Source: Bugulina stolonifera
Lineage: Eukaryota; Bryozoa; Gymnolaemata; Cheilostomatida; Bugulidae
Reading direction: 5' to 3'
DNA: 64,000 nucleotides
NCBI GenBank assembly: GCA_935421135.1
Contig: OW285188.1
Span: 5,508,733 to 5,572,732, forward strand
The position numbers were made by a program, and so were the translations under genes. The notes beneath the pieces were generated by a model, which searched no databases, had not been told where the DNA came from, and saw nothing but the letters and a program-made list of their open reading frames with translations. Shown here piece after piece: positions 6,465 through 59,607 of the stretch (positions are counted from its first letter, which is position 1; each line of letters opens with the position of its first letter).

Positions 6465-7062
6465 CAGAGATGCCAGACTCGAGTTAAAGACTCTCACTCG
6501 AGTTAATTCAAGCAACATTTTATGGCTTATTAGAAAGACTCGTGACTTGAATGTATAGATAGCAAAAACTTGTAACTTGAATTGTAATTCAATTATGGCT
6601 ATGATCAAAGACTCTCAACTCACACATCATTATGTTGAAATATTCAATAACTCGAGTTTTCATTGGGCAGCTGTAAATTGCAATGGATAGAAATAACCAC
6701 AGTTATAACCACAATTGTAACCACAATTATAGCACATTTTGCACTAAAACAGTGACATTTTGCTTTGAAATTTGAACTTCTAGCACTATTTCCTAACAAT
6801 ATTTCAAATTATAATTATAATAGCTTAATGACTCTATAAAAAGACTCGAGTTAGACAAGCAAAGAATTGAATTGAAACTTGCTTGTAGTTAACTTGGATA
6901 ACTTGACAAAAACTTGAGTTTCTGGAGACATGTAAATATTTAACTTGTAACTTGAAAGTTTTGATCTGTTACTGAAAGAATTGACTTGTAACTTGAAGAG
7001 TCACAACTAAGAGTTGGCCATGGAAACTTGAGTTTCCAAAATAAAACTTGCACACATCTCTG
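6465..7062. mobile_element. hAT-like MITE nested in element A pol
   Basis: A 598-bp insert splits pol between RNase H and integrase. It begins CAGAGATG and ends CATCTCTG (8-bp terminal inverted repeat, with the CAG-G start typical of hAT). It is bordered by a perfect 8-bp target duplication, CCTATTAG, at 6457-6464 and 7063-7070. Eight-bp duplications are the hAT signature. The interior is AT-rich with many ACTTG/CAAGT words and no transposase ORF, so it is non-autonomous. Confidence 0.9.
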
Positions 7063-37652: not shown

Positions 37653-38240
37653 TGTAATGGACGACCCCAGTCCGTTTGCTAGCCGACGACCCTTAAGGCC
37701 GTCGAGCCCTTTATGTTATTATATAATAGTCTACCATTATAGTCGTCTTTGTTGTATCATAAATAGTATCCTGTAAGTGTTTAGCTTGTTACATAATCTT
37801 TAGTATATGATTATGTAACCTTTTCTATAGCTAATTATAGTGTTTGATTACTAGCCGTCTCTATCATGAACGGCCTTATTGTTATTTGAACGACCTTGTG
37901 TAAACGGCTTACTAATGTGAACGGCCAACGGCCGGAACTAGTGGTTTTCTTTGTCTAGTATTTCTTTTGTCTCCTTCAGCTATATAAGGAGCCTGATTCT
38001 TGTTGTACTTTGCAATCTCTTGTATGCCTTCGTGCCCTCAAGATCACTCAATACATCATACATACACTTATATATTCTATGAGTTATATTGATGCGTTGA
38101 TCAATTGATACTTGAGCATTACACTTTGAACATACGCTAGGGAGGTTGTTTTGGCTAGGTAGCCGTTCTCTGCATCTGCACCTACGAGTCGTCGGTGGCT
38201 TGTGTACAGACCTTGGGCCGTCTGGGACACATCCACAACA
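37653..38240 (+). repeat. Element B 5' LTR
   Basis: TGTAATGGACGACC to CATCCACAACA. Contains TATATAAG at 37981-37988, a likely promoter TATA box. Confidence 0.93.
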
Positions 38241-38241
38241 T

Positions 38242-38259
38242 TGGTGGCAGCGGTGGGAT
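38242..38259 (+). promoter_or_regulatory. Element B primer binding site (tRNA-Leu type)
   Basis: TGGTGGCAGCGGTGGGAT lies one nt after the LTR. It complements a 3' end ATCCCACCGCTGCCACCA, the pattern of animal tRNA-Leu. Element D uses a near-identical site. Confidence 0.8.
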
Positions 38260-38296
38260 TAGGCGAATCCCTGACGACTTGTAGCAAGGGCAGATA

Positions 38297-39217
38297 ATGC
38301 AGAGGCGGAACCTAGCCATGGAGAGCACACGGTCATCCGCAGGGGAGGATACCGGAGATGTTCACAGACTGGTGGGTCTTGTGGAACGACTGTTACTGGA
38401 ACAGCCTCGTCCAGCAGTACAGGCCTTCAAGGCACCCTGCTACGACGGCGGCAGTGACGTCGAGTTCTTCATTCGCCAATTCCAGGCCGTCGCTACGGCG
38501 AACGGCTGGAATGAGGCGGCCACCTTCTTACCTCTCCGGAACTCGCTCTGTGAGGCGGCCAAGGATTGTGGACGGCCAGATACCACTGCAGGGATCTGGG
38601 TAGCTCTCAGGAGCCGTTTTGGTATGTCCCCTCGGGAGGCACGCCAACGGCTCGGTCAGTTGAGGAGAGACCAGCACACTCCACTTCAGGCACAGGCTAA
38701 TGAAGTGGTAAGGCTGGTCGAACTGGCTCATGGGGAGCTGCCAGAGGCGTATAGGATGACCCTGGCAGTGGAGGCGTTCACGCAGACGTTGGGCAATGGG
38801 CACCTCCAACGGCACCTGTTGGCGGTGGGAGCCAGGGATATGGAAACGGCCGTGCGAGCGGGCACGGAGTTCCTTAATGTTCAGGCTACCCCCGTCAGGA
38901 CGGACCGAGGAAGATACTCCTCGGCCGTCAGGGCGGTGTCATTAGAGGACGGCCCACCCATGGAGCGGGAAGAACAGGAGGAGCGGCTAGCCTGGCGGGA
39001 TGAAATGCAGGAAATGGTGCAAAAACTGCAGGTTATCATCCGACAGGTAGTAGAGCTCAAGGAGTTGGCCAAACAGAAGAACATGCCACCCCCAGTGTCC
39101 AACAACCCAGTCTCATGCTGGCACTGTGGAGAAGAGGGGCATGTACGACGCTTCTGTACGGCCAAGGAAGGGAGCCAGGCTAAGCAGTCGGGAAACGGGC
39201 GAGGCCCGGTTCAGTAG
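38297..39217 (+). CDS. gag: Element B Gag
   Basis: Gag forms the particle and binds element RNA. The 306-residue ORF starts at an ATG 57 nt after the LTR. The capsid-like part spans roughly residues 40-190 (YDGGSDVEFFIRQFQAVA, then ALRSRFGMSPREARQRL). The nucleocapsid zinc knuckle CX2CX4HX4C has C274, C277, H282 and C287. The ORF is intact and ends TAG at 39215-39217, overlapping ORF2 in the -1 frame. The capsid segment is homologous to the broken Gag at 62753 in element D. Confidence 0.92.
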   Translation: MQRRNLAMESTRSSAGEDTGDVHRLVGLVERLLLEQPRPAVQAFKAPCYDGGSDVEFFIRQFQAVATANGWNEAATFLPLRNSLCEAAKDCGRPDTTAGIWVALRSRFGMSPREARQRLGQLRRDQHTPLQAQANEVVRLVELAHGELPEAYRMTLAVEAFTQTLGNGHLQRHLLAVGARDMETAVRAGTEFLNVQATPVRTDRGRYSSAVRAVSLEDGPPMEREEQEERLAWRDEMQEMVQKLQVIIRQVVELKELAKQKNMPPPVSNNPVSCWHCGEEGHVRRFCTAKEGSQAKQSGNGRGPVQ

Positions 39218-42200
39218 AGACCACTGCTAGCCGGGCCGTCACTGAGCTGAGAGTGGATGGCCACACGGCCGGGGGCCGTTCCTTTGCGACCCCCATCACA
39301 CCCAACCTCTGGAGAGGCGCTGCCCACCAGGTAACCCCGGTGGACCTAGCCCCCCTTGAGGCAATGTGTGTCGATCAGTTGGTAGTGAAGGATGGCCAGC
39401 CGTCGCCCTCTGTCGCCCGACGGAGGAGGAGGAGACGGCACCAGCGCCGAAGGGACACAAAAAGCCAGGAACTACATTTGGAGAGTTTATATGTAGACGG
39501 CCTGGTAGAAGGAGTGAGGGCCCGTTTCCTGATTGACTCAGGTTGCACGGCCAACATGCTCGCTCCTAGAATTGCGGCAGCAATACCTGATAGCAGAAGA
39601 CCAGATAGGCCGTTCACGCGTACGACGGCTATGCTGGCAGATGGGTCTAGACTCCCACTGGAAGGGACGACCCAGGCTGAGCTCTGTATTAGTAAAACCT
39701 GTGGCGAAGAAACATTTGTGGTGGGAACCATCAGGGCAGATGGGGTGCTAGGGATGCCTTTTCTGACGGCACATGACTGTGCGTTAGATTTCAGGAGGCG
39801 GAGTTTGGGCATATATGGTGAGAGGATCGCCTGTACCATTGGCTCTGGTACAGAGACGACCCCCGATGAAGTAGCGCGACAAAGGCGTCAGACGACGGCC
39901 AAGCTACATACCGGGACTCCCATAAGCGACCCCAGGGCGCCAGAAAACATGCAGACGCGAAAACGACCAATCCGGGTCCAGTCTGTCTCTGTTGGCCCCA
40001 ATGAGCGTTGTGGCAAACAGGTGCGAAAACGGCCATCCACGGCCCAGCCTGTCCCTGTAGCAACGGACTCCCAGCGTCCAGATAGAGGGCGAGGTAATCC
40101 TGCACTTGAACGAACCACCCAAACGTATGCCGTCACAGACAGCACAGGCAGAGCTCAGGCCGTCCCTTGGCAGTGGACGGCCAGGATCCAGAAACGGCCA
40201 GTCGCCGAGATAGGGCGTGGCCTAATGCGGACGACCAACCGCAGTGATGTCTGGAGTCCATCAGGTATTAGCGCTGCCTATATAAGTGGGGACACTTTCT
40301 TCGAACAGTGCAGTTGTGAGGGAATTACTACGCGGACCACTCGTTTCCGCTCATGCGCATCTTGTTTGCAAACATTTTGCCTTGGGCCAACGTGTGATAT
40401 CCCGGAGAATTCAGAACCTTATAACTGTACTACACTTACCTGGGAAGAGAGTATGGATCCCCAAGGTGAGTTATGGGATGAGCTGGCTTCTCTGGAGCTA
40501 GATAAGTCGTTGGACGACCCAGGGTTGGACAGTAAGTCGTCCGGACAGTCTGATGTGCTGTTGGATTCCTCACTCGAAAGTTTGGCTACTACATTAAACA
40601 CTCCTACGAGGCCCCTATCTGGGAACGTTGGTTCTCAGAGGGTATGTAGAGTGAGTAGTAGTCCAGACTCGAAAGGGCCACACACACAGGCTACCTCCGG
40701 CGGCCCTGTCACCAGCGACTTGGAAGCTTCAGGGAAGGGCACCACGCCTGGTTCAGTTTTTACTACTGTAATAGACTGCACACCTACGCCGAAGTTCGTA
40801 GGCAAACTTAAGGGAAAGGTTATGCCTTCTCCTGACCGTTTCCTACGGACGTTAGAGGCTAGGGCCGTCCAGTCGTCTGTACAGAGTGTCATAAATACTG
40901 AATCTGTGCTTGTAGGTGAAGCAAGTCCCATGGAGATGTCCCCCAGTCAGTGTGGCGCTGGCTGCAACGTAGGAGAAGGGAGAGTGACCCCTAGAGTAGA
41001 GCAACGGGCCGCTGAGTCGACGACCCCTCCAGTGGACGACCCTGTCGTCGCTGGAGGAAAGTCGGCTCAGTTGGAGTCATCTGCCAAGGGGTCGGACCTG
41101 TTGGGTGATGGGGAGCCAGTCTCTGCCGTCTTGCCGTCGGTGCAAGTTCGTGTAGAGCCGTTGTCTCTCACGCCCAAGCAGGTTGAGGAGCTGCGGGCTG
41201 GCCCCATACCAGACCAGTGGCTATCATCGGGCTCACGAAAGATGATAGACGTCTGTATGGGGGGTTCCGGGAAGAACCGGCATTGCACCATATGCCTCTT
41301 CCCTGGGACGGCGAAACGGGTACGGACCCATATCATGCAGCATGTGGCTAGATGCTACTGTGGCTGTAGGTATGAAAATGTGTCCCGGGACGCTGTCTGG
41401 AGCCATCAGCACCGTGGCAAGAAGCAGAAGAGATGTGCCCAGGCTGGGGTGATTTACCGGGTTGATGCGGCCTCCTTTCCTGCCTTTAAGAGAGCAATGG
41501 GATGGCCTGCATCTCTCGGCTGGTCGGTGCCAGTACCTTTCTTACTGGGACCCGATGGTCGTAAGACCAAACCAGATACAGCTGCTCCTTCTCTTCCTTC
41601 CACTGAGGAAGGTGGGAGTAGTACAGCCACCAGCCTTGGAGTACGAATGCCAGCCTGGCACCCGAAGGCAGCGCCCGCTGCTTCGATGGTGTCAGGTGAA
41701 GAAAAGAAGAAGATGTCCCCAGCAGAGCAGAACCGGACACCAGCAGTCGAGGAGCCAGCCCTCCAGATCACAGAAGCAGATGTCACCCTGGATGAGCCCA
41801 CGTCTCCCAACTCTGATAGCTCACCACTCCCCCAGGCAAGCCAGCCGCAGAAGAAGCCAGAGGCACCCGTCTCTCCTGTCCGCCGGAAACGGCCGCTTCC
41901 TTCTGCACAGATGCTACCTCGGAGTTCCCTATCAGACCGCAGACGGCCATCCAGGGACCGTTCCCCTGCCAGTGAGGAGCCTAGGACCTCTAGACGCCAT
42001 GCCCGGAGACCCTCTGAGGACAGTAGAAGTCGGAGCCCACTAATGCCAGCCCACTTTGACAAGGAGCTGGAGCGGCAGCTGACAATAGAGCCGTACTCTT
42101 ATGGTTACGACCAGCGGATGAGGGATGTCTCAGACCCTTTACGGAGACACCTACGCGCAGCAGACAGAGTAATCAACCATTTAGAGACCAAGAAGGCACA

Positions 42201-42297
42201 GCTAGATGGAGTGGCCCGTAGCAGAGTATCTGACGAGTTGAAGCGAGTGAAACGAGAGCGTGCTACCTACCAGAGGCTAATGCAAGAACTTCCCTGA
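39184..42297 (+). CDS. Element B ORF2: retropepsin fused to a novel zinc-finger/coiled-coil protein
   Basis: The frame is open from 39184 in the gag overlap to TGA at 42295-42297; the first in-frame codon often taken as start (39253) is GTG, so frameshift expression is likely. Numbering from 39253: a basic patch (55-70), then a retropepsin with DSG at 95-97 and a GMPFL flap-like strand near 165-175. A low-complexity region follows, then a C2H2-type finger (C678, C681, H693, H697) and a second Cys/His cluster (C701-C705, H718, H720). Next is a Pro/Ser/Arg-rich stretch, with a helical charged C-terminus (LETKKAQLDGVARSRVSDEL). There is no RT, RNase H or integrase. The 500-residue middle and the C-terminus match nothing I recognise. 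Confidence 0.85.
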   Translation, partial: AVGKRARPGSVETTASRAVTELRVDGHTAGGRSFATPITPNLWRGAAHQVTPVDLAPLEAMCVDQLVVKDGQPSPSVARRRRRRRHQRRRDTKSQELHLESLYVDGLVEGVRARFLIDSGCTANMLAPRIAAAIPDSRRPDRPFTRTTAMLADGSRLPLEGTTQAELCISKTCGEETFVVGTIRADGVLGMPFLTAHDCALDFRRRSLGIYGERIACTIGSGTETTPDEVARQRRQTTAKLHTGTPISDPRAPENMQTRKRPIRVQSVSVGPNERCGKQVRKRPSTAQPVPVATDSQRPDRGRGNPALERTTQTYAVTDSTGRAQAVPWQWTARIQKRPVAEIGRGLMRTTNRSDVWSPSGISAAYISGDTFFEQCSCEGITTRTTRFRSCASCLQTFCLGPTCDIPENSEPYNCTTLTWEESMDPQGELWDELASLELDKSLDDPGLDSKSSGQSDVLLDSSLESLATTLNTPTRPLSGNVGSQRVCRVSSSPDSKGPHTQATSGGPVTSDLEASGKGTTPGSVFTTVIDCTPTPKFVGKLKGKVMPSPDRFLRTLEARAVQSSVQSVINTESVLVGEASPMEMSPSQCGAGCNVGEGRVTPRVEQRAAESTTPPVDDPVVAGGKSAQLESSAKGSDLLGDGEPVSAVLPSVQVRVEPLSLTPKQVEELRAGPIPDQWLSSGSRKMIDVCMGGSGKNRHCTICLFPGTAKRVRTHIMQHVARCYCGCRYENVSRDAVWSHQHRGKKQKRCAQAGVIYRVDAASFPAFKRAMGWPASLGWSVPVPFLLGPDGRKTKPDTAAPSLPSTEEGGSSTATSLGVRMPAWHPKAAPAASMVSGEEKKKMSPAEQNRTPAVEEPALQITEADVTLDEPTSPNSDSSPLPQASQPQKKPEAPVSPVRRKRPLPSAQMLPRSSLSDRRRPSRDRSPASEEPRTSRRHARRPSEDSRSRSPLMPAHFDKELERQLTIEPYSYGYDQRMRDVSDPLRRHLRAADRVINHLETKKAQLDGVARSRVSDELKRVKRERATYQRLMQELP
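39190..39237 (+). promoter_or_regulatory. Programmed -1 frameshift signal
   Basis: GGGAAAC at 39190-39196 is a canonical X-XXY-YYZ heptamer, and its phase in gag (G GGA AAC) is exactly right for -1 slippage. Six nt downstream a perfect 7-bp stem pairs GGCCCGG (39203-39209) with CCGGGCC (39231-39237) across a 21-nt loop. The -1 frame is open from 39184 through ORF2. This should yield a Gag-protease-ORF2 fusion. Confidence 0.88.
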
Positions 42298-42440
42298 TCC
42301 GGTATACACTGACTCTCTTGTATATATCTTGTGTGCCTCATATCTTATCCATATTATTATCACGTGTGAACCTATATATATGCTGTACCTTTTTTGCTAG
42401 TCGTGCATTACTATTTTTGTCATTGGAATCCTAGTGTCTC

Positions 42441-42455
42441 CAATTGGGGGGATTG
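42441..42455 (+). promoter_or_regulatory. Element B polypurine tract
   Basis: CAATTGGGGGGATTG directly precedes the 3' LTR. The G6 run is the likely plus-strand primer. Confidence 0.75.
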
Positions 42456-43043
42456 TGTAATGGACGACCCCAGTCCGTTTGCTAGCCGACGACCCTTAAG
42501 GCCGTCGAGCCCTTTATGTTATTATATAATAGTCTACCATTATAGTCGTCTTTGTTGTATCATAAATAGTATCCTGTAAGTGTTTAGCTTGTTACATAAT
42601 CTTTAGTATATGATTATGTAACCTTTTCTATAGCTAATTATAGTGTTTGATTACTAGCCGTCTCTATCATGAACGGCCTTATTGTTATTTGAACGACCTT
42701 GTGTAAACGGCTTACTAATGTGAACGGCCAACGGCCGGAACTAGTGGTTTTCTTTGTCTAGTATTTCCTTTGTCTCCTTCAGCTATATAAGGAGCCTGAT
42801 TCTTGTTGTACTTTGCAATCTCTTGTATGCCTTCGTGCCCTCAAGATCACTCAATACATCATACATACACTTATATATTCTATGAGTTATATTGATGCGT
42901 TGATCAATTGATACTTGAGCATTACACTTTGAACATACGCTAGGGAGGTTGTTTTGGCTAGGTAGCCGTTCTCTGCATCTGCACCTACGAGTCGTCGGTG
43001 GCTTGTGTACAGACCTTGGGCCGTCTGGGACACATCCACAACA
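42456..43043 (+). repeat. Element B 3' LTR
   Basis: Same length as the 5' LTR. The one difference seen is TATTTCCTTTG here versus TATTTCTTTTG upstream. Followed by GTAT. Confidence 0.93.
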
Positions 43044-46022: not shown

Positions 46023-46610
46023 TGCACTCATTTTACCCATGGGTACATTTGATGACTTTTTTCACCCCTCATTATTTTAGCTGCCAAACCTTAAAATGCA
46101 ATTAATTTTAGTTTTCACCTAGCAATGATGCTCTATATAGATTGCGCAATAGTTACTGTAAAATTCCAAATGACACGATATAGTATAATTCCATATACTT
46201 TAAAAATAGTTGATTACTTCTATAAATGACAGAACACATTATTTATTAATGCAAGAAAATTATTTTTTGTTATTATCCTGTTGGTATACTGTTTCACTGA
46301 CACCAGAATCTACCCTAAATTGTGCAAGGCAAGCATTTGAGGGCTTACAGTAGTATAACTTGAGTGAGTGTTAGAATAAAAACTTCAAGTGGAAGTCCAG
46401 CCTCATTGGAATTTTAGAAGGTATAATATTGAGATAATGCAAATATGTAAATAATAAAATAAAAAAATACAATTTTGAGTTTTATGATAGGTTTTGAGAA
46501 AGATATTCTTGCTATTAATATAGGGCCTAGGTATGTATAAAAAGTTCTGCTATTTAAAAATTCTGTAAAGTTTGCCCTAGGGTTATCATGGTCACTGTCA
46601 GAATACATTG
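46023..46610 (+). other. Intron-like AT-rich DNA up to the element C insertion
   Basis: No gene recognised. The last four bases (46607-46610, ATTG) are the element C target duplication. Confidence 0.5.
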
Positions 46611-48098
46611 TGTAATGAAAATTTGCCCCTTGTACTAGGGAGAAGAGAAACTGTTATTGTTTGCCGGCTTTTTATATGCAGTTATCTCCCACGATGGTAA
46701 GGTGCCCAAAATACTTCGAGACAAATAATCATACAATGGCTTCTATGGTGTAATGGAGCTTCGTTCAAAGACAATGAAACCAACAACACGAGTTCCCTTG
46801 TATATTATGGGTCACAGTTTAAACACGCAGTTTGGAACTAGTTGGATGCCTATTGGTCCATGATTAAATTAGACAGCATACAACTCCAACAAACATTTTG
46901 TTTAAAAGAAGACTAAGAATTACTATATAAAAAGATGGAAGTTTAAGACAATAAGGGCTTGGAAGTAAAACAAATCCCAATAGACAGACTATTAATTACA
47001 CAACATAATTTGGATAATTTGGATAATATTAATTGACTGAGTTGTATGCTGTCCTTAGCCTTACTGCCAAGGTGTAATATATATGATATGATATAGGTGT
47101 TGTTTATACATGTACATGTGTATGATAGTAATATTTGACCAAGCTGTATGCTACATGTAACTTATATTGGTTACCAAGTGTTATGTAACATAGTATTAGT
47201 GAGTTGGGATTAATTAGACCGAATTTTAAAGAACAACTTTTACTAAATATATTTTACATACTACAGGCATCATGGCTACAATAATGTGTTAAAAATAGAA
47301 CTTAAGCATTTGCACATGTTACATTAATACTAAAAGATATTGAAAATAGTATACGCCTAATTAACAAGAAAGAAATATAAGTGTAAATGCATGGCTGAAT
47401 GCAACAACTTACTATGTAGCTGTGGAGGTGTCTCCAAAAGAATAGAATAGTAGTTAGAGAAGTACACGTTGTTATAGTGTGGGTATCCAATACTAAACTG
47501 GGTACTGAACCTAAGTTTTCGCTCAGTTTTATAGTAGTAGTATATTTATAGCGTCTAAAAATAACCTAAGAAACTGATTGGACGTTGTAGTGTCCGAAAT
47601 CGGCAAAAACACATAATTAAAACTTCAGACATTTTCCGTCAGAAGACGCAGAATTAAATTGTAAACCAGATTATGGTGCTGGGTGGAGATGGGTTCAAAC
47701 CAACCAATTGACGTAAGCATGACCAGGCACAGGCGGTCAGACAAAAAAAAACAAGCGTTACAAACAATGTTTTAGTGGTTAATTAAACGTCAGCGTTATG
47801 ATGCATATCCTGGTACAGGCTTGAATAAGTATTACAATAATGTATGCCTAATCCTGGTACAGGCTATAATGTGGAAATGACCAGGCAAATTAATATGTGG
47901 AAGCTTCTTACAGAATAAAAACGACAACATCAGATCTTACAAAATATAAAAACCATACTAATGATTAAAAAGTTCATGTGCAAATGTGTTGAAAATAATA
48001 ACGTGAGATGCCATAATGTATAGTATTCTAATGTAGTAGCAAGCGCTATAGACTATGTAATGTTCAATGCAATAAGTCAATGTTAGTAGACCCTTATA
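46611..48098 (-). repeat. Element C 3' LTR
   Basis: The downstream LTR in element orientation. On the minus strand it holds TATAAATATA (plus 47541-47550), a TATA-box candidate. A 62-codon minus ORF inside it is repeated in the other LTR and is not thought to be a gene. Confidence 0.95.
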
Positions 48099-48599: not shown

Positions 48600-49541
48600 T
48601 TATCCTGGCCGAACGTTCGTAGGAGGTAGAACGCCCTCCAGCCACTCCAACAGGTGAAGCCATAAGTTCCTAGCTGGGGGTAGGTCCCTGCCCCTAGGTG
48701 GCCTAGTGAAAAAATTCCTGTCCACCTCGTGCCTCACCAGGCTAACCCAGCGGGGCAGGAAGCGTTCCGGGTCATGGCGAGGGCCAAAAATTCCATCAAG
48801 CCTAGCTGGTCCCAGTCTCCTGTGGATGCCTCCACCTGCAGTGCGGGTAGGGGCCGTACGTGCCGTCGTCCTGGAGACTGGTGCCACTATAGATGAGGGT
48901 GCTGCGGCTGGAACTGGCGTTGGGGCTGGAACAGGTGCTGTGGCAAGAACAGGTGCTATTGCAGGAACAGGTGCGGTGGCAGGAACAGGTGCGGGGACAG
49001 CCGCAGGAACGGTTGCAGTGGTAGAATCCAGGGGCGGAACCGGAGTACTAAGTTGTCTGATCTGGGCATCCCGCTCCCTCAGCGTAACCTTTAGCCGCCC
49101 CACTTCTTTAACTAGAGCCCCGGTGCCAGAACTCCGGCCCCGGGCCCTCTCGACGTCCAACTTCTTCTGAAGCTCCGAGATCCTCGCATCTCTCCGTCCC
49201 AATCGCTGTTTGAGGAGCTTTATCTCCGCCATCAACTCCTCCTTGCTGCGACGAAGTTCTCCAAAGTCAGCCGACCTTTTCACCCTCTTGTCCTTCCTCT
49301 CCTGAGCCCTTGTCTCCCTCTTGTCATCTTCAATCCCATTCCCCTTCCTGTCATCTCCAGTCCCATTCTCCTTCCTGTCCTCTCCAGTCCCATTCTCCTT
49401 CTTTTCATCTTCAATCCCATTCTCCTTCACGGGCTGCTCACCTTCATTTCCAGTACCAAACAATAATTCCATTTCCTCATCACCACTCGAAAGCTGGTCC
49501 TCCATCTCCCGAGACTCGCTAGTCGACCTCTTCCAAGACAT
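48600..49541 (-). CDS. Element C ORF2: coiled-coil, Pro-Ala-rich accessory protein
   Basis: A 313-residue ATG-initiated ORF lies downstream of pol, where env is usual in gypsy-type elements. Order: acidic N-terminus, four 9-10-residue KENG-type repeats (39-74), a basic stretch (KRVKR, 84-89), a predicted coiled coil (96-165, ELMAEIKLLKQRLGRRDARI), a Pro-Val-Ala repeat tract (166-222), and a basic/aromatic C-terminal part (LPRWVSLVRHEVDRNFF, WLHLLEWLEGVL). There is no signal peptide or membrane span, so it is not an envelope. The ATG follows immediately after a strong acceptor at 49542-49543, suggesting expression from a spliced RNA. Function unknown; a coiled-coil RNA- or Gag-binding role is only a guess. 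Confidence 0.8.
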   Translation of the reverse strand: MSWKRSTSESREMEDQLSSGDEEMELLFGTGNEGEQPVKENGIEDEKKENGTGEDRKENGTGDDRKGNGIEDDKRETRAQERKDKRVKRSADFGELRRSKEELMAEIKLLKQRLGRRDARISELQKKLDVERARGRSSGTGALVKEVGRLKVTLRERDAQIRQLSTPVPPLDSTTATVPAAVPAPVPATAPVPAIAPVLATAPVPAPTPVPAAAPSSIVAPVSRTTARTAPTRTAGGGIHRRLGPARLDGIFGPRHDPERFLPRWVSLVRHEVDRNFFTRPPRGRDLPPARNLWLHLLEWLEGVLPPTNVRPG

Positions 49542-49699: not shown

Positions 49700-52600
49700 C
49701 TATCTCCTTTTCCTGAGGTTGTAGCGAGGCTCCACATCAACCTCTTCATCTTCAGACACGTCAGTTGTCCCCTCCCCTTCATTGTTCATGAAGCCATCCA
49801 CCAAGATCTCTCTCTCATCCACAGACACCCGTGGTGGCAGTGATGGTTCAATTTTGATGACAGACCCGTCATCCTCCCTCAACTGCTCTTCTGCTGCCAT
49901 TGTAGAGGCGATATCAGCAATCGGGTCAGCGGGTTCAGGTGTGGGGAGAGAGGAGGCGGCAGGTGCTTGAAGCTGAGAGTAGTCGTACTCCTCGATCCGT
50001 CTCGGGGTAGCCCTCTTTAGGTGATTCAGATGGACCCACATGGGCTTGGATTGGTGGGTAGAGCTGCTGCCAATGAGCGCGTTACTCCCCAGGATGACCC
50101 TAATCACATATGGGCCCTTGTAGCGCGGTTGAAGTTTAGGGGAGAGCCCTTCAGCTGGCGTTGGCCGCAGCAGATACACCCGTTCAGCAACTTCTAGCTT
50201 TGATGGATTGGTAAACCTGTCATGGTACCGTTTCTGGATGGCGCTGGCCGCTTCATTCTTTTCACGAGCCAAGTCATAAGCCTGCTGCAGCCTTGTATGG
50301 AGGTCGTTGACAAAGTCCAATTCTGACTCCCACTGGGGTTCCGTGTCCGGTGCAAGGAGATGAGTAGGCAGCCGTGCATCCCGTCCATGTTCTAGCTGGA
50401 ATGGTGTTGAGCCTGTTGATGAGTGTACGCTTGTCCGATAGGCCATCATGACAAGGTCCAAATACTGGCACCAGTCAGTTTGGTTAGTTGAAACAAACTG
50501 GCGCAGCATCTCTGCCATAGTCCGATTCCATCTCTCCACCAATCCTTGGGTCTGTGGACGATAAGCGCAGGAGAGCTTCTGTCGCATTCCCATCAGCCTT
50601 GAAACTTCAGCAAACAAGTTGGAAGTGAATTGTCTTCCCCTGTCAGACGCTACAGAGAGTGGGACTCCATGTCTTGTTATAATCTGCGACACAAAGGCTC
50701 GAGCTACTACAGGTGCTGTGGCTGACCTTAAAGCCACACATTCAGGCCACTTGGTGAACCGGTCTTGCATAACGAGAATCCATTTATTTCCCCTTGAGCT
50801 CCTGGGCAATGGTCCAACAATGTCGATGGTTACACTCTGCCATGGTGCAACTGCAGTAATTGGAGTCATCTGCTCCTTGATAGGATGAGTTGGTGATTTC
50901 CTAGTCAGGCATCCTTCGCATGAGGCTATCCAGTTGGCTACATCAGCTCTGAGGCCAGTCCACTCATACTTCTGCATAATTTTCTTGCATGTCCTTTCCA
51001 CTCCTAGATGTCCTCCCCAAGTTGAGTCATGCATTTCGCCAATGATCCGTCCAATCAGGTGTTGAGGAACCACAATCACATGTTGTCCGCTTGGCAGTGG
51101 CAAGGCAAGGCATCCACTTCCTTTCATCAGTACCCACTTGTTAGCCAGAGCGATGGTTTCCTTGGTAGCTTGAGGTGCACCAGTTGTTAGGTAATCAATC
51201 ACAGCATTCAGCCTGGGGTCTTTCTTTTGTTCCTGCAGAAAGTAGTTTGCTTCATTATTCTCCAAGTTGAGCTGGTATATGTTGCATACTAGTGCCTTGG
51301 TATTGGGGTCAGATTGATAGACCAAGGTTGGTTTAGAGAACGGGTTCATCCTGCTCAGGAAGTCAGCAACCACATTCGAGGTCCCTTTCTTGTAATAGAT
51401 CTTCAGGTCGGAGAATTCAGACAGCTTCTGGATCCATTTCATCATCCGTGGGCTGTCACACTGCCTGATTCCCCAGCTAAGGCACCTCTGGTCACTATAG
51501 ACTGCCACTTGGTGTCCGTAAAGGTAGTGCTTCCAATGCTTGAGTGCCAAGACTATTGCAAAGAGCTCCCTCTCCACAGTTTCATAGCGGCCTTCAGTTG
51601 GGGTGAACTTCTTGCTGAAATAAGCAATGGGTTGGTCTTGGCCATTAACAACTTGTGACAAGACGGCTCCGGCTCCGGCAGCACTGGCATCAGTATGTAG
51701 AACAAAGGGTTGGTCAAACCTGGGGTAGATTAGAAGTGGGCTAGTGGTGACCTTTTCCTTCAAAGTCTTGAATGCCTGCTGACATTCTTCAGTCCAGTTG
51801 AACTTGTTCTCCTTCTGGGTGAGGTTGGTCAGTGGCTGGGCGATGATGCTGAAGTCCTTGATGAACCTTCGGTAGTAAGAACAGAAGCCAACAAATGACC
51901 TTACTTGGGTCACTGTTTTTGGAGCAGTGTAGGTAGCCAACTTTTTGATGTTTTCAGGATCAGGTCGCACACCTTCAGTTGTTACTAGGTAACCCAAGAA
52001 AGGAAGAGAGTCCCTAGCAAATGCACACTTCTTCATCTTTAGCCTCAAGTTGTAGTGGTCCAGCCTTTGAAATACTTCTTCTAGGTGCTTGAGGTGATCC
52101 TCCCATGTCTTTGAAGCTACCAGGACGTCATCCATATAAAGTATGCAGCTTTGGAAGTGTAAGCCACTTAAAACAAACTGCATGAGACGGCTGAATGTAG
52201 CAGGAGCATTGCGTAGGCCAAAGCACATGTAGTTGTAGTGAAAGAGTCCTTTTTCTGTAATGAAGGCGGTGTATTTCTTGGACTCCTCCTCCATTGGAAC
52301 TTGTAGGAAGCCACTGTGAAGATCCAGAGTTGTTAGATATTTGGCGCCAGTCAGGAACTCCATGCTTTCATCCACCTTAGGTAGCGGGTAAGCGTCAGCC
52401 TTGGTTACCCTGTTGACTGCTCTAAGGTCCACGCATGGCCGAATTTCACCATTGGGTTTCTTTACTATTACCAGGGGAGATGCCCATGCAGAACAGCTTG
52501 GCTCGATGATCCCAGCATCCAACAGCTCATCCAGCTTCTCATTCAGCTGACCTCGCACACTTGCAGGTACTCTGTAGGCCTTCTGCTTGATGGGGGTAGG

Positions 52601-55600
52601 CTCAACAACTTCGATCCGGTGCTTGATTATGTTAGTGCCTGGCAGATCCTTGTCTCCAGCTGCAAAGATATGAGCATATCTGTTAACCAGGGCACTCAGT
52701 TCCTCCTGTTGCACCCATGTCAGAGATGTTCCAGATAGGTCGACGTCTAATGAGGGGGTGGATTCAGGTCTCCTCTCCATCCTAGTTGGTGCAGTTGTGC
52801 AGACTGTTGCAGTTGCCTCCACATAGCCAAGCCTCTGGTTTTCATAAATTATTATTGGGTGGTTGGCTGGGTTTACCACTCGAATGGGCATCCGGTGTGA
52901 AGCTTTTACTAAGGTCCTGGGGCTAAGAAACTGGTCTCCTTTCTCCAAGTCCTGCTCAAAGACTAGGTCCTGTCCAGGTTTGATTGGAATGCTGGTGGTA
53001 CAATAGACTATAGCCATAGACCTTGCAGGTAGAATTTGGGTGTCGGTCACCTTAGCTGCCAGTGGCGGTGTCCTGGAATGTTCAAGTGGTACATATTTGG
53101 CTCCAACCTTCAGACGTCTGCTGCCTGGGTCCAACATGATGGCTCCCCACTTCTTGATGCAGTCATAGCCTAAGATTCCATCCTGGTCACTACCATCAAA
53201 GACTCTGAAGACTTGGGTAACCTCAAGGTCTCCTACTGTCAGAGTTGCTTCTGCTTCACCATATAGAGTTATCCCCTCTCCGGTGACTGAGACTGCTGGT
53301 GGGCAGGTAAGTGGTGAGAGAGTCAAGCCTAGCCTTCTTGCCATATTTTTAGAGAGAAGGGATATTGCAGATCCAGAATCAAAGAGGTACCTTCCCATAG
53401 TACCATTGATCGCTGCCAATATGACCATGGTGTTGTCATGATCATCGTTTCCTGTCATCAGGTGTCGGACATTGGCTGTACCTTCTACGCATCTGTCAAT
53501 CACTTCTTGTAGAGGCTCCTCTTCTTCCTGCAATTCAATGTCCTGGTTTGGTGGTGGTGGTGTAGAGTCAGGCGTGGTCTTCCTCCTAGTCAGCCTGGTG
53601 ATGATGTGCTGTCGGGCTCCAGGAAGAAACTTTCGGGTGAGTAGTAGCAACCAATAACCACAGGTTGCTGCGCAGACAAGAAAAACCCATAAGTGAAAAG
53701 GGTTTTTGAGTAGAGTGACGAGTGACAGCATTCCACGCTCCATAATTCCTCTGGATAAAGTATCTGCTATTTGGTCAGCATCATAGCCATCATCTGGTTG
53801 GAATTGTGCTCCCAATAGTGCCATAACTTCTGCTTGAGCTGATGCTGACTGGAACACTGAGTTGAGATGGTCAGATGGCTGTAGCTCTTCCCATGAGTAG
53901 ATGTTGACAGGTCGGAAGATGATTGGTGACATCAGAATGTTGTGATCCTCGGCTGGTAGATGTGACAAGGTCCTGAGTTTTGACACACTTCCTGATTTGG
54001 CCAGCTCTCCAGTAGTGCGGTTGTAAACATAGAGTTTGTGGTTGAGCTGTATTGGTAGACTGGAGACAAGTCTGCAATCTGTAGGTGTGCCGTAATGAGA
54101 GGTAACTAGTGTGACTGGTGATAGGTAGCCTTGTTGAGTTTTGTTCAGGAATTTGAACTCTACTGGTATTTCTTCGGTGCAGTGGTCCGTCTGAGCTAGC
54201 GGCTTGAGAGCTCCTTTGGGGAGTGGTAAGCATTTCCAGACTTCAAGGAATCCATTTCCTGCTCTGCTGTAGAGGAGACTATCATTAAGAAGGATTCTGA
54301 TTGCCTCCACAGGTCTGCTGAGTGCTGTAGTCCTCCAGGCTATAGCGTTGTTCCTCATGTTGTCACAGGTCATCTTTAAGTTGTGACGGTAGGCATAGTT
54401 TATTTCAGTTCGGATCCGTTCATACATTGCTTGTTGTTCTGCTGCCAGTTGAGTGGATGTTACAACACCGTCTAAGGCCCAATGTGCAGCTTCCCTTCTC
54501 TGGCGCTGCTTCGGTATCCGGTAGGCCAACCCTTGGTCCGAGATGTTCAGCATCACACCACAGTCCACCTCTGTTCGCTCATCAATGTGAGTCAGTGCAA
54601 GCATACCATTATCGGCCAACCAGCTTCTATGGGATTGTCTGCCCTCCATTTCCTTGTAGAACAGGAACTTGCAATTGGCTGTCTTCTCTGCCTTCCAGAT
54701 TAGAGCTTGACTTCCTACTTGACATTCATTGCTGAAATAGCTGGGACAGGAAGTGACATCAATACCGCTACAGCTGAAGTGGTCTTGGTCATGCTGCATG
54801 TAGACCCTTACAGGAACTAGGTAGTAGTTGGTGGCTGTGTATTCTACCCATTTGCAGCATTCTGGAAGTCCTCCTCTTGGCTGTCTCCAGTTCAAGTTGT
54901 TGTTGGTAGCCCAAGTGCCTGATTTCAGTGATGACAGTTTTCCAGCTGGTGACATCTTGCTGTTCATCATTCCCCTGCATTGGCTGGTTGTTACGGCAAT
55001 GTCATCGGTAGTGAATTCCTGTAGATGCTCATCGTTGAAGAAATAGGTGCGAAGTCTCGCCCTCTGTTTCACGCCCTTGCATATCCATCCTGGCACATCA
55101 TACTTGACATGATTATACTTGTATATCTGGTAGCTGACACTGACTGGAACATCAGTGTTGTTGTGTTGAATCATGAGGTCACACTCCGGGGGTTCAGGTA
55201 GTGCAAACAGTTGTCCTGGCATCTGGGTGTTGCAGACTTGGGCACGTTGAGCATCACAAGGTTGAAAGAAGAGGACACAAGCTAGCATGGAAATATAGAG
55301 ATAGCTGTATCCTGGCCTCCTTCCAGAAGGTGAGATTCCACGGTTGCTCGGGATATCACGGTGTTGAGATCCGTTGCCATCATAAGTTACATCATGGTCT
55401 GGAGTTTCATTCCTGGCATCTTGGGTGGCGCTCCTGGACATTCCGGGGCTCCTGGTTTCAAGCTGGGCATTATCTTCCTGGAACTGGGAAGTTGTTCGTC
55501 CAGATTTCACTTGGCGGACCCTTGGCTTGTGACGAGGGTTAGTAGGGCGGTTGTTGGAGTTTGGAGTCGTCCTCACTCGGCAGCTGGACATCATGTGGCC

Positions 55601-56701
55601 ATATAGGTTGCAACGAAAACAGCGTGGCTGACCGTCTCTATTGTAGTTGGGCAGAGTCCTGGGTCCTGGCATCCTTCGTGGTTGAAATGATAGGTGGTTG
55701 TTGAAGTTGGCTGGCTGGCTCCGGGGGAAGTGGTGATGTATTCTTGGCCATCTCTCCTGCTCAAAGTGGTTTGGGTGCTGCCGCTGACCTTGACGCTGTT
55801 GTTGGGAGAAGGGGTTCTCCTGTAGCCGGGTGGTGAGTTGGTTAACTTGCGTGGTCAAGTCTGACATTTTCTTCTCCAGGGCCTCACTTGCTGAGTTGGC
55901 TGACTTTATTGCTGCCACTGCAATCTCTCTGTCCTCCTCCATGTATGCTCTATTTCCTTCAGCATGGCAGGCTATGTTCAGGGCCTCTTGGCTGGTTTTT
56001 GGATCCTTGGCTATGACCTTGTTCTTGAGGTATAAGCTCATACCTCTTATGAACCTCTCCAGGAATTGGCTGTCAGGCATCTTCTCATCTCCTGGATAGG
56101 CATGTTTGGATAACTTTTCCAATTCATCATAATAGGCAACTGCTGACTCTCCTGGCAGCTGCTTTCTGGAATAGAAGGCGGTGGTTCCTGCTCGTCTCCC
56201 TCCTGACAATGTTTTGAAGTATTCTTTAAGAACCGTTGTCAAGGCATTGAAGTCTGTCTTTCTTTCTGCTACTTCTTCTACCTTCTTCTTATAGACTTCG
56301 AGGGCATGACCATGCAGTCTGGTGCTGAGAAACCTGGCTTTCTTTTCTGCTGCATCAAGTCCATAAGCATCACAGGCAAGCTCATAGTCTTGTAGGAACC
56401 TTTCAAAGGGAGGGTCAGTATTTGGGTCACCGCTGTATTTGGGAAAGCTCTCTCCCATCATGCTATTAACCAACATAGCTTCCATGACTGGGGGTTGTGC
56501 TGCTCCGTTAGCTGCTGCCTCTGCTTCCTGTGCTGCTGTGGCTGCTCGCTCTGCGTCTGCTCTTCGTTGATCGGCTGTCTCCAACTGCTGTCTCAGCTGG
56601 ACGACTTCTTCTGCCAAACGTTGACGGTCCCTCTCGAGCTGTCGGGCGTCACGGTCAAGGTGCTGCTGTAGAGGGTCTTGTACAGAAGTTTGAGTAGTCA
56701 T
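49700..56701 (-). CDS. Element C polyprotein: Gag-Env-protease-RT-RNase H-integrase
   Basis: One frame is open from 56806 to TAG at 49700; its first codons lack ATG, so translation likely starts at the ATG at 56701 (MTTQTSVQ). Numbering from 56806: coiled coil 46-103; Gag capsid about 125-290; zinc knuckle C396, C399, H404, C409. An envelope-like block (about 500-1085) is listed separately. Retropepsin DSG is at 1143-1145; RT has YMDD at 1557-1560; RNase H has D1706, E1747, D1772 and D1815. Integrase has H1926, H1933, C1963, C1966 and D1995, D2055, E2091 with exactly 35 residues between the last two. GPY is at 2231-2233, with an acidic tail ending RYNLRKRR. No stop or frameshift separates any unit. 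Confidence 0.95.
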   Translation of the reverse strand: MTTQTSVQDPLQQHLDRDARQLERDRQRLAEEVVQLRQQLETADQRRADAERAATAAQEAEAAANGAAQPPVMEAMLVNSMMGESFPKYSGDPNTDPPFERFLQDYELACDAYGLDAAEKKARFLSTRLHGHALEVYKKKVEEVAERKTDFNALTTVLKEYFKTLSGGRRAGTTAFYSRKQLPGESAVAYYDELEKLSKHAYPGDEKMPDSQFLERFIRGMSLYLKNKVIAKDPKTSQEALNIACHAEGNRAYMEEDREIAVAAIKSANSASEALEKKMSDLTTQVNQLTTRLQENPFSQQQRQGQRQHPNHFEQERWPRIHHHFPRSQPANFNNHLSFQPRRMPGPRTLPNYNRDGQPRCFRCNLYGHMMSSCRVRTTPNSNNRPTNPRHKPRVRQVKSGRTTSQFQEDNAQLETRSPGMSRSATQDARNETPDHDVTYDGNGSQHRDIPSNRGISPSGRRPGYSYLYISMLACVLFFQPCDAQRAQVCNTQMPGQLFALPEPPECDLMIQHNNTDVPVSVSYQIYKYNHVKYDVPGWICKGVKQRARLRTYFFNDEHLQEFTTDDIAVTTSQCRGMMNSKMSPAGKLSSLKSGTWATNNNLNWRQPRGGLPECCKWVEYTATNYYLVPVRVYMQHDQDHFSCSGIDVTSCPSYFSNECQVGSQALIWKAEKTANCKFLFYKEMEGRQSHRSWLADNGMLALTHIDERTEVDCGVMLNISDQGLAYRIPKQRQRREAAHWALDGVVTSTQLAAEQQAMYERIRTEINYAYRHNLKMTCDNMRNNAIAWRTTALSRPVEAIRILLNDSLLYSRAGNGFLEVWKCLPLPKGALKPLAQTDHCTEEIPVEFKFLNKTQQGYLSPVTLVTSHYGTPTDCRLVSSLPIQLNHKLYVYNRTTGELAKSGSVSKLRTLSHLPAEDHNILMSPIIFRPVNIYSWEELQPSDHLNSVFQSASAQAEVMALLGAQFQPDDGYDADQIADTLSRGIMERGMLSLVTLLKNPFHLWVFLVCAATCGYWLLLLTRKFLPGARQHIITRLTRRKTTPDSTPPPPNQDIELQEEEEPLQEVIDRCVEGTANVRHLMTGNDDHDNTMVILAAINGTMGRYLFDSGSAISLLSKNMARRLGLTLSPLTCPPAVSVTGEGITLYGEAEATLTVGDLEVTQVFRVFDGSDQDGILGYDCIKKWGAIMLDPGSRRLKVGAKYVPLEHSRTPPLAAKVTDTQILPARSMAIVYCTTSIPIKPGQDLVFEQDLEKGDQFLSPRTLVKASHRMPIRVVNPANHPIIIYENQRLGYVEATATVCTTAPTRMERRPESTPSLDVDLSGTSLTWVQQEELSALVNRYAHIFAAGDKDLPGTNIIKHRIEVVEPTPIKQKAYRVPASVRGQLNEKLDELLDAGIIEPSCSAWASPLVIVKKPNGEIRPCVDLRAVNRVTKADAYPLPKVDESMEFLTGAKYLTTLDLHSGFLQVPMEEESKKYTAFITEKGLFHYNYMCFGLRNAPATFSRLMQFVLSGLHFQSCILYMDDVLVASKTWEDHLKHLEEVFQRLDHYNLRLKMKKCAFARDSLPFLGYLVTTEGVRPDPENIKKLATYTAPKTVTQVRSFVGFCSYYRRFIKDFSIIAQPLTNLTQKENKFNWTEECQQAFKTLKEKVTTSPLLIYPRFDQPFVLHTDASAAGAGAVLSQVVNGQDQPIAYFSKKFTPTEGRYETVERELFAIVLALKHWKHYLYGHQVAVYSDQRCLSWGIRQCDSPRMMKWIQKLSEFSDLKIYYKKGTSNVVADFLSRMNPFSKPTLVYQSDPNTKALVCNIYQLNLENNEANYFLQEQKKDPRLNAVIDYLTTGAPQATKETIALANKWVLMKGSGCLALPLPSGQHVIVVPQHLIGRIIGEMHDSTWGGHLGVERTCKKIMQKYEWTGLRADVANWIASCEGCLTRKSPTHPIKEQMTPITAVAPWQSVTIDIVGPLPRSSRGNKWILVMQDRFTKWPECVALRSATAPVVARAFVSQIITRHGVPLSVASDRGRQFTSNLFAEVSRLMGMRQKLSCAYRPQTQGLVERWNRTMAEMLRQFVSTNQTDWCQYLDLVMMAYRTSVHSSTGSTPFQLEHGRDARLPTHLLAPDTEPQWESELDFVNDLHTRLQQAYDLAREKNEAASAIQKRYHDRFTNPSKLEVAERVYLLRPTPAEGLSPKLQPRYKGPYVIRVILGSNALIGSSSTHQSKPMWVHLNHLKRATPRRIEEYDYSQLQAPAASSLPTPEPADPIADIASTMAAEEQLREDDGSVIKIEPSLPPRVSVDEREILVDGFMNNEGEGTTDVSEDEEVDVEPRYNLRKRR
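53550..55315 (-). CDS. env: Envelope-like glycoprotein segment embedded between Gag and protease
   Basis: This is a domain of the polyprotein, residues about 498-1085. It opens with a signal-peptide-like run (ISMLACVLFFQPCDA, 505-519) and continues as a cysteine-rich ectodomain with sequons at N549, N754, N841, N888 and N929. A furin-type site RQRR lies at 768-771. After it comes a helical stretch and a C814...W...R...G...C859 arrangement of the kind seen in domain III of class III (herpesvirus gB-like) fusogens. A membrane span covers about 1037-1057 (LWVFLVCAATCGYWLLLL), followed by a basic tail. Class III assignment rests on pattern only. Env from such sources is reported in some invertebrate LTR elements, but normally downstream of pol. 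Confidence 0.75.
55286..55288 (-). promoter_or_regulatory. Possible internal start codon for Env
   Basis: M507 sits three residues before the hydrophobic core of the signal-like segment, in context TTCCATGC. A spliced RNA that skips gag could start Env here. AG dinucleotides at the end of GGATACAG just upstream offer possible acceptors, none strong. Confidence 0.35.
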
Positions 56702-56779
56702 GTGAAAGAGGAATAGACAACTCCAAGTTAGCAATAGCACTACTGGCACAGTGCTATGTGTAGGTCCACCCAAAAATGG

Positions 56780-56790
56780 GCTCACCTCAG
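56780..56790 (-). promoter_or_regulatory. Predicted 5' splice donor in the leader
   Basis: On the minus strand CTGAG/GTGAGC matches the donor consensus well, with the cut between 56786 and 56785. It lies 84 nt upstream of the Gag ATG, as major splice donors do in retroviruses. It could feed ORF2 and Env acceptors. Confidence 0.5.
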
Positions 56791-56806
56791 AAATTAAGTA
56801 TAACAC

Positions 56807-58093: not shown

Positions 58094-58111
58094 GTTACGG
58101 TTTGACTTCCA
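58094..58111 (-). promoter_or_regulatory. Element C primer binding site candidate
   Basis: On the minus strand, four nt after the LTR, TGGAAGTCAAACCGTAAC begins with the TGG complementary to a tRNA CCA end. The tRNA could not be identified. Confidence 0.55.
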
Positions 58112-58115
58112 AATT

Positions 58116-59603
58116 TGTAATGAAAATTTGCCCCTTGTACTAGGGAGAAGAGAAACTGTTATTGTTTGCCGGCTTTTTATATGCAGTTATCTCCCACGAT
58201 GGTAAGGTGCCCAAAATACTTCGAGACAAATAATCATACAATGGCTTCTATGGTGTAATGGAGCTTCGTTCAAAGACAATGAAACCAACAACACGAGTTC
58301 CCTTGTATATTATGGGTCACAGTTTAAACACGCAGTTTGGAACTAGTTGGATGCCTATTGGTCCATGATTAAATTAGACAGCATACAACTCCAACAAACA
58401 TTTTGTTTAAAAGAAGACTAAGAATTACTATATAAAAAGATGGAAGTTTAAGACAATAAGGGCTTGGAAGTAAAACAAATCCCAATAGACAGACTATTAA
58501 TTACACAACATAATTTGGATAATTTGGATAATATTAATTGACTGAGTTGTATGCTGTCCTTAGCCTTACTGCCAAGGTGTAATATATATGATATGATATA
58601 GGTGTTGTTTATACATGTACATGTGTATGATAGTAATATTTGACCAAGCTGTATGCTACATGTAACTTATATTGGTTACCAAGTGTTATGTAACATAGTA
58701 TTAGTGAGTTGGGATTAATTAGACCGAATTTTAAAGAACAACTTTTACTAAATATATTTTACATACTACAGGCATCATGGCTACAATAATGTGTTAAAAA
58801 TAGAACTTAAGCATTTGCACATGTTACATTAATACTAAAAGATATTGAAAATAGTATACGCCTAATTAACAAGAAAGAAATATAAGTGTAAATGCATGGC
58901 TGAATGCAACAACTTACTATGTAGCTGTGGAGGTGTCTCCAAAAGAATAGAATAGTAGTTAGAGAAGTACACGTTGTTATAGTGTGGGTATCCAATACTA
59001 AACTGGGTACTGAACCTAAGTTTTCGCTCAGTTTTATAGTAGTAGTATATTTATAGCGTCTAAAAATAACCTAAGAAACTGATTGGACGTTGTAGTGTCC
59101 GAAATCGGCAAAAACACATAATTAAAACTTCAGACATTTTCCGTCAGAAGACGCAGAATTAAATTGTAAACCAGATTATGGTGCTGGGTGGAGATGGGTT
59201 CAAACCAACCAATTGACGTAAGCATGACCAGGCACAGGCGGTCAGACAAAAAAAAACAAGCGTTACAAACAATGTTTTAGTGGTTAATTAAACGTCAGCG
59301 TTATGATGCATATCCTGGTACAGGCTTGAATAAGTATTACAATAATGTATGCCTAATCCTGGTACAGGCTATAATGTGGAAATGACCAGGCAAATTAATA
59401 TGTGGAAGCTTCTTACAGAATAAAAACGACAACATCAGATCTTACAAAATATAAAAACCATACTAATGATTAAAAAGTTCATGTGCAAATGTGTTGAAAA
59501 TAATAACGTGAGATGCCATAATGTATAGTATTCTAATGTAGTAGCAAGCGCTATAGACTATGTAATGTTCAATGCAATAAGTCAATGTTAGTAGACCCTT
59601 ATA
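58116..59603 (-). repeat. Element C 5' LTR
   Basis: The upstream LTR in element orientation, seemingly identical to 46611-48098. TATA candidate at plus 59046-59055. Confidence 0.95.
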
Positions 59604-59607
59604 ATTG

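Follow-up and report, generated by a model that had tools for sequence, protein, structure and literature searches.

How can an envelope glycoprotein come to be encoded between Gag and the protease of a long terminal repeat (LTR) retroelement, in one reading frame with both? The question is raised by an element in the 64,000-nucleotide stretch of contig OW285188.1 of the bryozoan Bugulina stolonifera (assembly GCA_935421135.1, positions 5,508,733 to 5,572,732), which we call the window; all positions below are window positions, and the element and its frame lie on the minus strand. An initial annotation, made from the sequence, had described an envelope-like block (Env) between Gag and protease. 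We find the same arrangement at many loci of this genome and in database proteins. It is probable that a gypsy-type element gained a class III fusogen in frame between Gag and protease and that its product is a single, membrane-threaded Gag-Env-Pol chain.

The element is an LTR element of the Ty3/gypsy type. Its two LTRs of 1,488 bp are 100% identical and are bordered by a 4-bp target-site duplication; identical LTRs with ATTG at both sides indicate a recent insertion with both ends genuine, in agreement with its initial description as young. As had also been proposed, one unbroken frame (56806..49700, minus strand) runs from Gag through a signal-like segment, an ectodomain and a membrane span into protease, reverse transcriptase (RT), RNase H and integrase. 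It measures 2,368 aa counted from a GTG, where the residue numbers of the initial annotation start, and 2,333 aa from the ATG at 56701. The features of the element are as follows.

58116..59603, minus strand: 5' LTR, 1,488 bp, identical to 46611-48098
46611..48098, minus strand: 3' LTR, 1,488 bp
46607..46610, no strand: left copy of the target-site duplication, ATTG (from sequence)
59604..59607, no strand: right copy of the target-site duplication, ATTG (from sequence)
58094..58111, minus strand: candidate primer-binding site (TGG...), 4 bases past the 5' LTR end
49700..56701, minus strand: single frame Gag-Env-protease-RT-RNase H-integrase, ATG at 56701, open upstream to 56806
55430..56701, minus strand: Gag, approximate limits (Retrotrans_gag 0.0047, below cut-off; same region in database proteins P0006 and P0007)
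55580..55621, minus strand: CCHC zinc knuckle, C396-C409 (GTG numbering)
55250..55309, minus strand: putative internal signal-peptide-like segment, perhaps cut after ...PCDA
53693..55249, minus strand: Env ectodomain, most likely of class III fusogen type, 5 N-x-S/T sites
54494..54505, minus strand: RQRR, furin-type site (sequence pattern)
53636..53692, minus strand: membrane span (hydropathy)
53162..53416, minus strand: aspartic protease (DSG), Asp_protease_2 7.4e-11
51989..52465, minus strand: reverse transcriptase (YMDD), RVT_1 4.1e-35
51413..51796, minus strand: RNase H, RT_RNaseH 3.6e-30
50555..51070, minus strand: integrase, H2C2 zinc finger and rve core, 1.2e-17 and 9.3e-14
48600..49541, minus strand: ORF2 (second open reading frame), 313 aa, candidate accessory, between pol and the 3' LTR

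The order of the pol domains assigned by Pfam, protease, RT, RNase H and integrase (PR-RT-RH-IN), is that of Ty3/gypsy elements (Metaviridae). The DSG and YMDD motifs were seen directly, while RNase H, the H2C2 finger and the rve integrase were recovered through Pfam. The zinc knuckle stands where it had been placed, the RQRR is present, and the span begins at residue 1004 from the ATG, or about 1039 from the GTG, against the 1037 first given. Pfam detected nothing in the part of the window frame that separates zinc knuckle and protease. The block found there (610 aa as cut) contains 20 cysteines, the N-x-S/T sites, the signal-like segment with its core LYISMLACVLFF at 55265-55300, the RQRR and the span, which is followed by a basic stretch and then an acidic one.

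The window Env was used as a query against the B. stolonifera assembly (27 contigs, 234.95 Mb). The 24 matches correspond to 21 loci on nine large contigs, after merging of L003/L011, L009/L024 and L010/L020. Flanks of 10 kb on each side were inspected at ten loci and of 1.5 kb at another ten, the window being the 21st locus. Within these flanks Gag lies upstream of Env at 20 of the 21 loci (the exception is L022), pol lies downstream at 15, and pol was found upstream of Env at none; some of the loci are decayed or partly deleted. The six loci without pol downstream are three pol-less elements, described below, and L008, L018 and L023, where 1.5 kb was inspected. The errantivirus and retrovirus order, with env after pol, was not encountered in the flanks inspected: in the window Env precedes the protease. 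When eight pol-carrying elements (window, c2, f5, f6, f7, f12, f13 and f14) were followed along their length, the frame was open from Gag to integrase in seven, and in f6 it changes inside RT.

These elements and the pol-less ones form five families. Family A consists of the window element and c2, a copy on contig C8 (LTRs 99.7% identical), B of f5 and f6 (LTRs 99.9%), C of f7 (LTRs of 477 bp, 100%), D of f12, f13 and f14 (LTR pieces 100, 99.9 and 98.0% over the portion compared), and E of f15, f16 and f17; additional decayed Env elements include L009 and L021. Identity to the window Env is 23% in B and C, 18-19% in D and 18% in E, while B and C are 41% identical to each other in Env. Because E is 85% identical to f12, we regard it as a derivative of D. 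Gag was called by Pfam in f5 and f7 (Retrotrans_gag 3.9e-7 in f7, above the cut-off) and by the same open frame and knuckle in f6. The family A protease query detected a protease in f14 and none in f12 or f13. In every A-E element compared, a hydrophobic segment directly precedes the first conserved cysteine and the span lies about 480-500 residues past the start of the Env match, placing signal core and span at matching positions in all five families. On the Gag side, the region before Env in D and E (L033-L044) is about 1,390-1,620 aa, far longer than in A-C, with no CCHC by simple pattern and a weak capsid match near residues 596-755 in f12 and f16.

Protein searches covering about 5.8 billion proteins found three that are related to the block. 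In P0006 (912 aa) Env follows Gag; its identity to the window is 33% across Gag plus signal region and 44% for Env. The protein appears to be cut by a contig end, and its tail is presumably sequencing adapter. P0007 (1,060 aa) contains Gag, knuckle, Env and protease in one protein, with an Env 48-50% identical to that of the window. The third, P0008 (330 aa), is uninformative on order because it covers the second half of Env only. An R-x-R-R motif occurs at the same position in the window, P0006 and P0007. No relatives were found in viral contigs (four queries) or genome contigs (one query) by scans based on two to six short patterns each.

The relatives also indicate what the block is. The Pfam family Monjiviricetes_fusion (PF24664) is matched above its cut-off by P0007 (1.6e-7, together with a protease at 1.3e-8), f5 (4e-10) and f7 (9.6e-9). 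The genome search pairs f5 with the window Env at 5.6e-43, so the latter is linked to Monjiviricetes by homology through relatives. Matches in D are below threshold, to herpesvirus glycoprotein B (gB) in f12 (0.011) and f13 (0.0011) and to a rhabdovirus family in f14 (0.11), and f16 of family E has none. PDB sequence searches gave two non-significant matches in one search and none in the other. The fusion domain of the window (206 aa) was modelled template-free, the best stretch being about residues 22-116, and compared with the PDB by Foldseek. The best 50 of 548 matches (E up to 10) were all class III by title, with E 0.006-0.06 for this modest-confidence model; the titles name herpesvirus gB (some in antibody complexes), baculovirus GP64, vesicular stomatitis virus (VSV) or Mokola G and the Dhori glycoprotein, all of which we take to be class III proteins. 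Most likely, the Env block is a class III fusogen of the Monjiviricetes, or chuvirus-like, type.

To what extent do related elements carry the block? RT searches were run with A, C and D queries, and 150 of 644-777 candidates were scored for each. Among the listed copies, five, four and three are more than 50% identical to the A, C and D query, respectively, and an Env match stands at the expected place in 11 of these 12. The exception, C6:4351618 (L047), is a decayed copy without a match to Gag or Env. The initial concern that most copies might lack the block is answered for the listed copies of these families. The listed RTs C1:26050143 and C6:16564117 adjoin the Env loci L009 and L021. The remaining ones are 29-43% identical to the queries, lie in frames as long as 1,757 aa and are more than 10 kb from the 21 Env loci (compared by eye). 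Since most other listed RTs have no Env match within 10 kb, Env appears to be the exception among gypsy-type elements of this genome, as judged with the window Env query, which a far diverged Env could escape.

The RT of family A is 43% identical to one Env-less RT, as against 29-32% to those of B-D. In a 10-row RT tree for this genome, which includes four Env-less RTs and omits c2, f6 and, because of its broken frame, L047, the Env-bearing rows do not form one clade; grouping them is not rejected (approximately unbiased test, p 0.178). Such a tree may reflect a single old Env capture or module exchange between pol lineages, and it does not decide between them.

Env shows an excess of synonymous changes. 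Between the window and c2 there are 4 non-synonymous and 13 synonymous changes in Env, a ratio of non-synonymous to synonymous rates (dN/dS) of 0.087 from small counts. The same comparison gives 0.39 for Gag (424 codons compared, 7 non-synonymous and 5 synonymous changes), 0.19 for PR-RT (8 and 13) and 0.18 for RH-IN (3 and 5). For Env of f12 and f16, one pol-carrying and one pol-less, dN/dS is 0.092, with synonymous sites near saturation; the value of 0.53 for f5 and f7 has little weight because synonymous sites are near saturation there too.

The pol-less elements f15, f16 and f17 (L039-L044; C4, C5 and C8) are three young LTR elements on three chromosomes that encode Gag-Env. Their target-site duplications are CATG, GGGC and CCAG, and their LTRs of about 2.9-3.0 kb are 99.8-100% identical. 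The main frame of 2,048-2,049 aa contains Gag and then Env and stops shortly past the span, with the 3' LTR about 745 bp further on. No pol match was found within 10 kb on either side using the family A queries, which do detect the RT of D. The pol-carrying f12 has its LTR end and the following bases in common with f15-f17, and the three elements may move using enzymes supplied in trans by D-type elements. Survival of the Gag-Env chain without pol suggests that this chain is a working unit, and the pol-less elements make it testable which parts must move together.

From these arrangements we infer the following course for translation, topology, cleavage, budding and infectivity. A single RNA would be translated into a single Gag-Env-Pol chain. 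Gag would be made in the cytosol, after which the internal signal segment would open translocation into the endoplasmic reticulum. Signal peptidase would then free the N-terminus of Env, with Gag remaining tethered through the signal segment. The single span would halt translocation and leave protease, RT and integrase in the cytosol, tethered to the Env tail. The element's own protease would release the Pol parts, and in some families a furin-type enzyme would cut Env. Gag, Env and Pol could in this way reach one membrane patch together, and the fusogen could serve transfer from cell to cell or from cell to germline.

Several observations weigh against this reading. Taken by itself, the window Env matches no Pfam family up to E 10, and P0006, f12, f13 and f14 of family D and f16 of family E have no Monjiviricetes_fusion match above the cut-off. 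The fusion-domain model is modest (mean predicted local distance difference test score, pLDDT, 49.6) and gave no Foldseek match below E 0.001. The comparison with known glycoproteins that had been called for at the outset is borne out by three relatives above the Pfam cut-off; the structural matches are best to class III but short of that level. A model of full-length Env (pLDDT 37) was too poor and supports no fold claim. The signal-like segment (residues 505-519) and membrane span (1037-1057) of the initial annotation were both located; however, shuffled blocks equal the signal hydropathy in 269 of 2,000 cases and the span hydropathy in 144 of 2,000, which is not beyond chance, so the case for both rests on their conserved position in other families. 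By a simple pattern, a furin-type motif before the span is present in A and C and was not found in B, D or E. Finally, a Met lies 2 residues before the signal core in P0006, D and E, and at 20 in C, making internal initiation possible in these.

The position of this Met favours the alternative that a spliced or internally initiated RNA is the main source of Env, in the errantivirus and retrovirus way, the long frame being merely a genomic arrangement; known gypsy-type env genes are spliced. However, in A, B and P0007 the nearest Met is at least 47 residues upstream of the signal core, with none within 46, so a separate start at the signal is unlikely there. A splice would, moreover, need to preserve the frame into the signal, and the frame continues past the span into pol in seven of the eight elements. 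We consider separate expression unlikely, and much the same holds for the idea that the block serves chiefly to anchor Gag and Pol to a membrane in intracellular assembly rather than as an infectious fusogen. The predicted topology would indeed tether Gag and Pol at the same membrane, and young Gag-Env elements exist without detected pol. Yet a mere anchor would not need the several ectodomain cysteines and residues of the fusion domain that are conserved from family to family.

The initial annotation had itself allowed for a private insertion or misassembly; these, or a chance frame, are by now hardly credible. P0006 and P0007, which contain the same joins, rule out a private insertion, and the 21 loci on nine large contigs, with their LTRs and target-site duplications, rule out a chance frame or an assembly error; the low dN/dS is a further argument against all of these. 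A gypsy-type element with an in-frame fusogen, translated as one membrane-threaded chain, is the explanation we prefer. On balance, and with somewhat less assurance, we lean towards regarding these elements as an undescribed retroelement group, in which Gag, a class III fusogen and Pol would form a flavivirus-style membrane-threaded polyprotein, with at least four families (A-D) and pol-less Gag-Env partners that would use the enzymes of the full elements.

ORF2 of the window element, on which the initial annotation is silent, is charged and Pro/Ala-rich, has 27-bp tandem repeats and is 87% identical in the second family A copy; it has no significant match in f5-f7 or f12-f17 and no Pfam match above the cut-off. 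Elsewhere in the window, a further gypsy-type element has its protease and RNase H in separate open reading frames at 4758-6558 (plus strand). A second young LTR element occupies 37653-42755 (plus strand; identical LTR stretches at least 300 bp long, GC content about 57%). It has a CCHC open reading frame at 38297-39217 (sub-threshold) and one of 1,014 aa at 39253-42297 with a sub-threshold aspartic protease match. No RT match was found in it at E 0.01, and it may lack RT and be non-autonomous.

Retrotransposons become retroviruses by capturing an envelope, and to our knowledge every known route adds env after pol, where it is separately expressed. Errantiviruses (Drosophila gypsy, ZAM) resemble the present elements in having a gypsy-type pol and an envelope, but their env is a separate open reading frame after pol, made from spliced RNA. 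Retroviridae share LTRs, Gag, PR-RT-RH-IN and Env, but have the order gag-pol-env with a spliced env. The likeness to the class III glycoproteins of Monjiviricetes lies in the PF24664 matches of the relatives and in the class III structural matches of a modest model; in those RNA viruses, however, the glycoprotein has a gene of its own. The envelope of Cer-7 is said to be herpesvirus-derived and, if so, would also be class III. A preprint reportedly describes gypsy elements from across the animals whose env resembles herpesvirus gB, though it is not known to report this gene order; if that is right, the class III part of our finding is less new. In the literature searched, whose coverage excluded most subscription papers and bioRxiv preprints, we found, among the papers listed and judging by title or opening of the abstract, none with an env placed in frame between gag and pol, in keeping with the initial view that the order is undescribed. 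Enveloped LTR retroelements are already known, and it is the Gag-Env-Pol architecture that is new as far as this literature tells. With a fusogen kept inside the replication polyprotein across families, these elements would join capsid, envelope and enzymes, and fix the ratio among them, by another route.

Roo, Tas and Cer-7 are likewise LTR elements with captured envelopes, but theirs follow the polyprotein, according to the accessible part of the report on Anakin (PMC7642597). Anakin itself, a group of BEL-Pao elements of mosquitoes, has a chuvirus glycoprotein as its envelope and in this resembles the elements described here; it differs in being Pao rather than gypsy, and that part of the report gives no position of the glycoprotein relative to pol (PMC7642597). 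A later arthropod survey by the same group, as far as its available text goes, reports Gypsy fragments flanking chuvirus-type glycoproteins in insects, the glycoprotein in two complete elements (Anakin and an unclassified Bemisia tabaci element) and neither Gypsy nor Copia as having clearly captured one (PMC10084718). The Troyka paper names Errantivirus and Anakin as env captures and gives the errantivirus envelope a likely baculovirus origin; its accessible sections contain nothing on a gag-env-pol order (PMC12440569). With the present elements, complete gypsy-type elements are seen to contain a fusogen of chuvirus type, something that the available text of the survey had not clearly found (PMC10084718). 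As to mechanism, the core-E1 junction of hepatitis C virus offers the nearest parallel, with capsid protein, internal signal peptide and glycoprotein in one chain in the portion of the source available (PMC5402940). The virus is unrelated, and the likeness would be one of mechanism and not of membership.
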